The notes beneath the pieces were generated by a model. It was given only the letters and a program-made list of their open reading frames with translations. It was not told where the DNA came from and ran no database searches. A program made the translations under genes and the position numbers. This document shows, piece after piece, positions 34,660 to 37,254 of a stretch of 64,000 nucleotides of DNA. The first letter of the stretch is position 1, and each line of letters opens with the position of its first letter. Source of the DNA: Brachyhypopomus gauderio (lineage: Eukaryota; Chordata; Actinopteri; Gymnotiformes; Hypopomidae); the NCBI RefSeq assembly GCF_052324685.1, contig NC_135219.1, positions 24,221,532 to 24,285,531 on the forward strand, written 5' to 3'.

Positions 34660-37254
34660 ATGCCAGTTCATTCGCGTGATAGAAAAGAGTCGCACGAAGA
34701 TATGGACGTGGACTACCCGGACCATGAAGGCGCCAGCAGCTCTGATGAGGAGGACACAGTAAGCTCGTCTGCGTCTGAAGATGGAGACAGCTCAGGTGAG
34801 CCTTCAGCGTTTAGATGATTCAACAGCCATTTAACAATTTAAATACTTAAAATTTCGTAAATATGGTTCAGTAATGTACCTGAGGAGCTATCTAACACGG
34901 ACGTGGTTTGCCTTTATCTCATGCTGTCATGATGATGATGAGATGTGCAGAAATGGATGATGAAGATTGTGAAAGGAGGCGACTGGAATGTCTGGATGAG
35001 ATGACCAGTCTGGAGAAGCAGTTCACTGACCTCAAGGACCAGTGAGTAACAGTCCCAGCTCAACAATAACTCATACTCACCAGAATATTTACGTTAACCA
35101 TCTGACCGTGTCAAATCGCTGAAATGGTTCAGAAGTTTGATATTTGATCAGGTTGTACAAGGAGAGACTTAACCAGGTGGATCTGAAGCTACAGGAGGTC
35201 AAAGCTGGCAGTGCTGCTGAATACCTGGAGCCCCTGGCCAACCTCCAGGAGAATGTACAGATTCGTACCAAAGTGGCTGGTAGGTTTCCACAAAACTTAA
35301 TTCAGAATATGAAACTATGTGAGGACAACGATTAGTTCACTTCACTTACTGGAAGTATCGTTTAGCATTAGACAAGCTGAAATTTTTAAGATAATTGAAA
35401 CCATCATAAAATATTATTTGTTTAACCAACTAAATTATCACAAATTAATTTTAAACTGATTCAGTGACATGAAATGGTATTGGGCATAGGCTCAATGTTC
35501 AGTCGTCCTGGACCTGAACTCGTCACGTAATCATGGAGAGTTCATTAGGAATGCTTTGAACATGTGTCATGTGCAATCATGGGTTATTCTTCACTTTCCT
35601 GTTTTGAAGGTATCTACCGTGAGCTATGCTTGGAGTCTGTGCGGAATAAATATGACTGTGAGATGCAAGCAGCGAGCCAGCACTGGGAGGTAACACTCTG
35701 TGTGGCTACATAGGGAGAATACGGTGTGTTGTGCAATAAACCTTTGGCCTACACTGTCTGGCCGCTGTATTAGGTGTACCTTTATTAGGTATACCTTACA
35801 TACAGGTGCATTTTACAGACAAACAATTAAATACTGTAGTACTCCCCATGACATGCAGTTTGTCTGCAACCCTGTACCCAGTTCACCAGTGTTCAGATTC
35901 TGACACCAACCAACGTCTTTCTTTTCAGCCTATATCTAAATGTGACTATACTGTATATAAGACATATAGATATAAGACATGTATATATGTGTTTCTTCTT
36001 TCTTCAGTAAGTGTAGCCCAATCCTCTTAAAGGTATTTTACTAAGAGCTATTATACTATAGGCTACATGATACAAACATATTTAAGGAAATAATGGCAAT
36101 TAAAATAATATTTTAAGGAAAATTATCACAATTCCTTTAATTCCGATTTGTTAATGTAGGCTAATCATTTGCATATTGGGTATATTGTGCCATCTTTTGC
36201 ATATTACGTATTACATTGTCATTTAGTGAAATTGCTGTAACAGTCATACTATTGTTTGTGTGTGACAGAGTGAGAAGCTGCTTCTGTTTGATACAGTCCA
36301 GAGTGAACTAGAGGAGAAGATCAGACGTCTAGAGGAGGACAGACAGAGTATTGACATTACGTCAGGTTAAAAAAAACAACACAAACACATTGTATCACAA
36401 GCTTAAGCATCTATGTATTAGCTTGTACGGATTACATCGTAATTTTTTTATTGTATTTTATATTATAAATTGTATATTATTTCTTATTTCCTACACCAGA
36501 ACTGTGGAATGATGGCTTGCAGGCAAGAACCAATAAAAAAAAACATCCCTTCTCTCCTGGCAAGAAGAAGAAACCCGTGGTTGTGTCCGATATCCTTTAC
36601 CTGAGCACTCATCTGTTTTCAGCTATACTGCAGTTGCATCAGTTATTATACATATGTCCTGTATTTCCTTATCTTCCCACGACCATATATCGTTTACATG
36701 TTGCAAGACCTAGACATACTCGAAGACTGGACGGCTATACGAAAGGTCTGCAGGTGTTTTCCTAAGTTGTGTTTATTTGTAGAAATGTACTGCTTTATAT
36801 TTTTTTATTTGTTTGTTTTATTCACTGCACTGTTTTTCACAGGCTATGGCTTCGATGGGACCACACAGAGTAAAAGTTGATGGTAAGAGATTTAATGTAT
36901 TTTAGCATGATTAAAAAGGTGTGGATTCTTCTCCTTACATTGTAACGTACATTTGTATTATATTGTGGCAAACTAGCTAGAATTGTAGCAGCCGTTCAGA
37001 ATTCACAAGAGGCAGTGATGTAGGACAAGAAGTTTAGGTGAGGGATCTGCTAAGAGGGCGTTTCAGTTAGTGCAGTGAATGAGCCTGTGTTCAACAGTCC
37101 CGTCAAAAGCTGATGGACAGCATCACCATGCTGCTCGCTCTGAAGATGGACGTTTATTCTACGACAACAAGTGGTACAGTCGAGGGCAGGCCGTGTGCAT
37201 CGCTCGCAAGGAGGAGTACCCCATAAGGTACGGGAGCAAGAGAGTGCATGTCCG

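Follow-up and report, generated by a model that had tools for sequence, protein, structure and literature searches.

The BRMS1L gene in the 64-kb window (the whole stretch of DNA analyzed here) is interrupted at 36590-36680 by 91 nt that begin with AT and end with AC. Is this a genuine intron of the minor, U12-type class, or can an intron with ordinary borders be drawn at the same place?

Gene model and family membership

Gene reconstruction in the window yielded a complete BRMS1L gene (34660-37473, + strand), whose 10 coding exons encode 324 amino acids with zero internal stops:

34660-34795, 34951-35041, 35152-35279, 35610-35689 and 36269-36365, + strand: coding exons 1-5
36500-36589, + strand: exon 6, ending in ...VVVS and the first base of a Gly codon
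36590-36680, + strand: intron 6, AT-AC, very probably U12-type, 91 nt, phase 1
36681-36745, + strand: exon 7, 65 nt, opening with bases two and three of the Gly codon, followed by PYIVYML
36843-36882, 37098-37227 and 37356-37473, + strand: coding exons 8-10

Eight of the nine introns in this model have GT-AG ends and lengths of 97-579 nt, and intron 6 is the only AT-AC intron. The AT-AC intron of 91 nt claimed at this place in a preliminary description of the DNA is thus borne out by the sequence and by the gene model. Directly 3' of exon 7, intron 7 (36746-36842) has a weak-looking donor (AAG/GTCTGCAGG) and exon 7 itself is short; use of a GT located eight bases past this donor would shift the frame.

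Residues 60-180 of the deduced protein match the Sds3 domain (Pfam PF08598) with an E value of 1.3e-22 and 81.4 bits, against a cut-off of 25.4, and 132 of 247 aligned columns are identical to human BRMS1. The seven PDB sequence matches of the whole protein include BRMS1 and SDS3 chains. None of these seven spans residue 208 at the intron 6 junction, since they match best at residues 50-179 or 253-322, and a PDB search with the junction segment alone returned a single insignificant match (E 0.92). The Sds3-like domain and the similarity along the length of BRMS1 point to a member of the Sds3/BRMS1 family, which is probably BRMS1L rather than BRMS1, its longer C-terminus being like that of human BRMS1L. 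Viral contigs were scanned once for stray sequences of vertebrates, and no relative was found.

Elsewhere in the window, three tRNA genes lie on the + strand within 0.8 kb (48084-48864; Arg(ACG), Glu(TTC), and Arg(ACG)). The domain scan of the window covered 10 of 96 ORFs. Upstream of BRMS1L, the ORF at 31956-32801 matches a Tc3-type transposase HTH, has a DDE match that stays under its cut-off, and is a putative Tc1/mariner-like element. Matches to a Sleeping Beauty-type HTH and to a Tc3-type transposase domain were obtained for a minus-strand ORF at 56629-57123. A further minus-strand ORF (46394-47206) carries an ALKBH8_N match at its end (E 1.5e-15); matches of this kind are common among the retroelements of fishes, so this ORF may not be ALKBH8 itself. 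Tc1-like elements and compact introns suggest a fish as the probable source of the window.

Borders of intron 6 and alternative excisions

Intron 6 starts with ATATCCTTTACC, ends with TTCCTTATCTTCCCAC, and splits a Gly codon within ...VVVS-G-PYIVYML. Joining 36589 to 36681 gives tcc-g/ga-cca, read as S-G-P, in an open frame of 324 amino acids. The junction cannot be slid in either direction, as the bases differ between 36590 (A) and 36681 (G), and likewise between 36589 (G) and 36680 (C).

The uniqueness of these borders was assessed by enumerating all in-frame, stop-free excisions of at least 20 nt that start at 36511-36700 and end no later than 36738, the remaining exon borders being kept unchanged, and by aligning the resulting proteins to the human BRMS1 sequence printed in PMC8598058. 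Excision of 36590-36680 was the single best of the 6235 candidates, with a score of 666, and it leaves an 11-residue segment across the junction identical between the present protein and human BRMS1. Intron-like ends (GT-AG, GC-AG, AT-AC, AT-AG, or GT-AC) were found in 127 of the excisions. Moreover, 31 excisions, whatever their ends, place zero to three residues between VVVS and YIVYML, and of these only 36590-36680 yields Gly-Pro. The alignment with BRMS1 that had been proposed as a check, run here with the human protein, therefore places the AT-AC excision on top, and the conserved protein sequence is restored across the junction as had been claimed.

An ordinary U2-type intron with GT-AG or GC-AG ends, to which the AT-AC look would be added by chance, has some room in the reading frame. 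For introns of at least 30 nt that start with GT, GC, AT, or GA and end with AG or AC, 154 choices are in frame and open, and these include eight GT-AG pairs; GC-AG pairs of this length also keep the frame open in eight cases. However, the best GT-AG excision scores only 632 and the best GC-AG excision 605, against 666 for the AT-AC borders, and on this account both alternatives were rejected. The three top GT-AG pairs would remove only 28-58 nt and keep intron-derived residues in the conserved segment, and VVVSGPYIVYML is kept in none of the eight in-frame open GT-AG pairs, in agreement with the earlier statement that the protein cannot be restored by any GT-AG choice. We regard such a U2-type intron as extremely improbable.

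Splice signals and the spliceosome involved

The AT-AC borders of intron 6 are accompanied by the following signals:

36590-36598, + strand: 5' splice site ATATCCTTT, 9/9 to the U12 consensus
36665-36673, + strand: branch-site-like TTCCTTATC, 8/9 to the U12 branch-site consensus TTCCTTAAC, with the likely branch A at 36671
36679-36680, + strand: 3' splice site AC
36682-36683, + strand: second in-frame AC three bases downstream, use of which turns Gly-Pro into Ala

The 5' splice site had been described as an exact U12 consensus, and it indeed agrees at 9/9 positions with (A/G)TATCCTTT; PMC8199999 gives the consensus as (A/G)UAUCCUUU. The eight remaining BRMS1L donors agree with it at only 2-5 of nine positions. 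By themselves, however, the U12 motifs are not significant in 64 kb. The window contains two copies of ATATCCTTT on both strands together, at 36590 and 52953 and both on the + strand, where about 0.42 per strand are expected. A loose U12 layout (RTATCCTT, then TTCCTTNNY closely before AC or AG, within 3 kb) was found once per strand, and the expected number of 0.57 per strand is a point in favor of the U2-type intron discussed above. What carries the case is that both motifs sit precisely where the conserved protein is interrupted. The second exact copy of ATATCCTTT (52953-52961, + strand) is followed by GGAGGAG, and no U12-like branch site (TTCCTTNNY) close to an AC or AG was found within 3 kb after it; this copy probably occurs by chance.

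When 20000 random 46-nt stretches were drawn from the + strand, 0.8% of them contained a match of 8/9 or better to the branch-site consensus. The one mismatch of TTCCTTATC falls on the usual penultimate branch A, which is T here, and thus the branch would be formed by the preceding A (36671), which occupies the earlier branch position of the two. Such a shift appears acceptable, because either of the two consensus A residues can be used as branch point (PMC3584512) and A at either position is accepted (PMC7367187, PMC6717393); the branch-site consensus is printed as UCCUUAAC in PMC8199999. From A36671 to the intron end at 36680 there are 9 nt, just under the published range of 10-20 nt with an optimum of 11-13 (PMC8199999, PMC3584512), depending on how the ends are counted. 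The preliminary description had passed over the missing penultimate A. A separate polypyrimidine tract upstream of the 3' splice site is not typical of U12-type introns. The last 17 nt of the intron (TTTCCTTATCTTCCCAC) are pyrimidine-rich, yet they consist largely of the branch site itself, and this pyrimidine-rich 3' end (TTTCCTTATCTTCCC) does not by itself make a distinction from a U2-type tract.

The short spacing draws attention to the second AC, whose end at 36683 lies 12 nt from A36671 and thereby within the published optimum. Used as the main acceptor with the same AT donor, it would define an intron of 94 nt (36590-36683) that is in frame and open and produces VVVS-A-YIVYML. This excision ranks second of the 127 with intron-like ends, at 645 versus 666. 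On the other hand, it drops the Gly-Pro that human BRMS1 has there, and because Ala would then stand for Gly-Pro in a stretch where the human protein is identical, we rank the second AC as a minor alternative, and consider it very unlikely to be the main acceptor. It is also unlikely, if less strongly so, that CAC-GAC acts as a tandem acceptor with the branch A at the first position, in which case two BRMS1L forms, SGPYIVYML and SAYIVYML, would be made in a ratio set by the conditions of the minor spliceosome.

AT-AC ends could also be processed by the major spliceosome, as is the case for a few AT-AC introns; the data of PMC8280824 list 85 major introns of AT-AC or related subtypes. Against this reading, intron 6 has a perfect U12 donor and a U12-like branch site, and removal by the major spliceosome is hardly credible here. 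We are therefore highly confident that BRMS1L intron 6 belongs to the AT-AC introns of the U12-type (minor) class.

Splicing route, consequences, and comparison with known minor introns

For a U12-type intron 6, the U11/U12 di-snRNP would jointly recognize ATATCCTTT and the branch site TTCCTTATC, after which U6atac would take over from U11 at the 5' site and act in the catalytic core. An A, probably 36671, would then attack the 5' site, and the joining of 36589 to 36681 would rebuild Gly208 of the conserved SGPYIVYML. If intron 6 is retained instead, its 91 nt shift the frame and lead to a stop at codon 272, so that the output of BRMS1L protein should track how active the minor spliceosome is. 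By arithmetic this stop lies about 130 nt upstream of the last exon junction, which makes decay of the retained transcripts plausible. Skipping of exon 7 also shifts the frame, and skipping of exon 6 keeps it. Depletion of CENATAC affected 92% of A-type minor introns (PMC8280824), and by analogy intron 6 is predicted to be CENATAC-dependent. Retained minor introns are, in addition, shorter than non-retained ones (PMC6717393). Both observations together make a short AT-AC intron a plausible sensitive target, and intron 6 could be used to monitor the activity of the minor spliceosome.

An eLife 2013 paper (PMC3728624) counts human BRMS1L among the minor-intron genes. BRMS1L and E2F6 are named as examples in its minor-intron section, their splicing and expression being enhanced by anisomycin, and a section title states that p38MAPK activation raises the U6atac level. 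BRMS1L expression is suppressed in HeLa cells under normal growth, and E2F6 is likewise a suppressed gene (PMC3728624). This was the only publication found that ties BRMS1L to a minor intron, the U12 type, or the minor spliceosome, and the search for BRMS1L together with intron retention found none. Among the U12-type introns of fishes, AT-AC introns make up 22% in zebrafish and 12% each in Tetraodon and fugu (PMC7367187, Table 2), and short introns form large peaks in both classes in fugu, and two peaks are seen in zebrafish (PMC7367187).

Intron 6 thus appears genuine, if ordinary, given that human BRMS1L is already in print as a minor-intron gene, that AT-AC introns reach these shares in fishes, and that the sister introns measure 97-579 nt. 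For the same reasons the preliminary description overstated rarity and the 91-nt length, although its U12-type AT-AC reading stands with the best of 6235 excisions and rightly placed motifs. Alone, the intron raises no new question; it does provide a clear case of such a minor AT-AC intron within a Sin3/HDAC complex gene, and its AT-AC borders should be annotated because exon 6 or 7 would be disrupted by gene finders built on GT-AG borders.

Three known systems allow a closer comparison. Firstly, the human BRMS1L minor intron shares the gene with intron 6; PMC3728624 provides support at the gene level, and the two introns are likely orthologous in position. Secondly, U12-type AT-AC introns of vertebrates (PMC7367187) have in common with intron 6 the AT-AC ends, the ATATCCTTT donor, and a U12-like branch site near the 3' end; intron 6 differs in its branch site TTCCTTATC, where the usual second A is missing, and in a branch distance at the short edge. 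Thirdly, the U2-type AT-AC introns SYCP2 intron 5 and TAF2 intron 1 (PMC8280824) carry the same terminal dinucleotides, but are spliced by the major spliceosome, while intron 6 of BRMS1L has the U12 donor motif.
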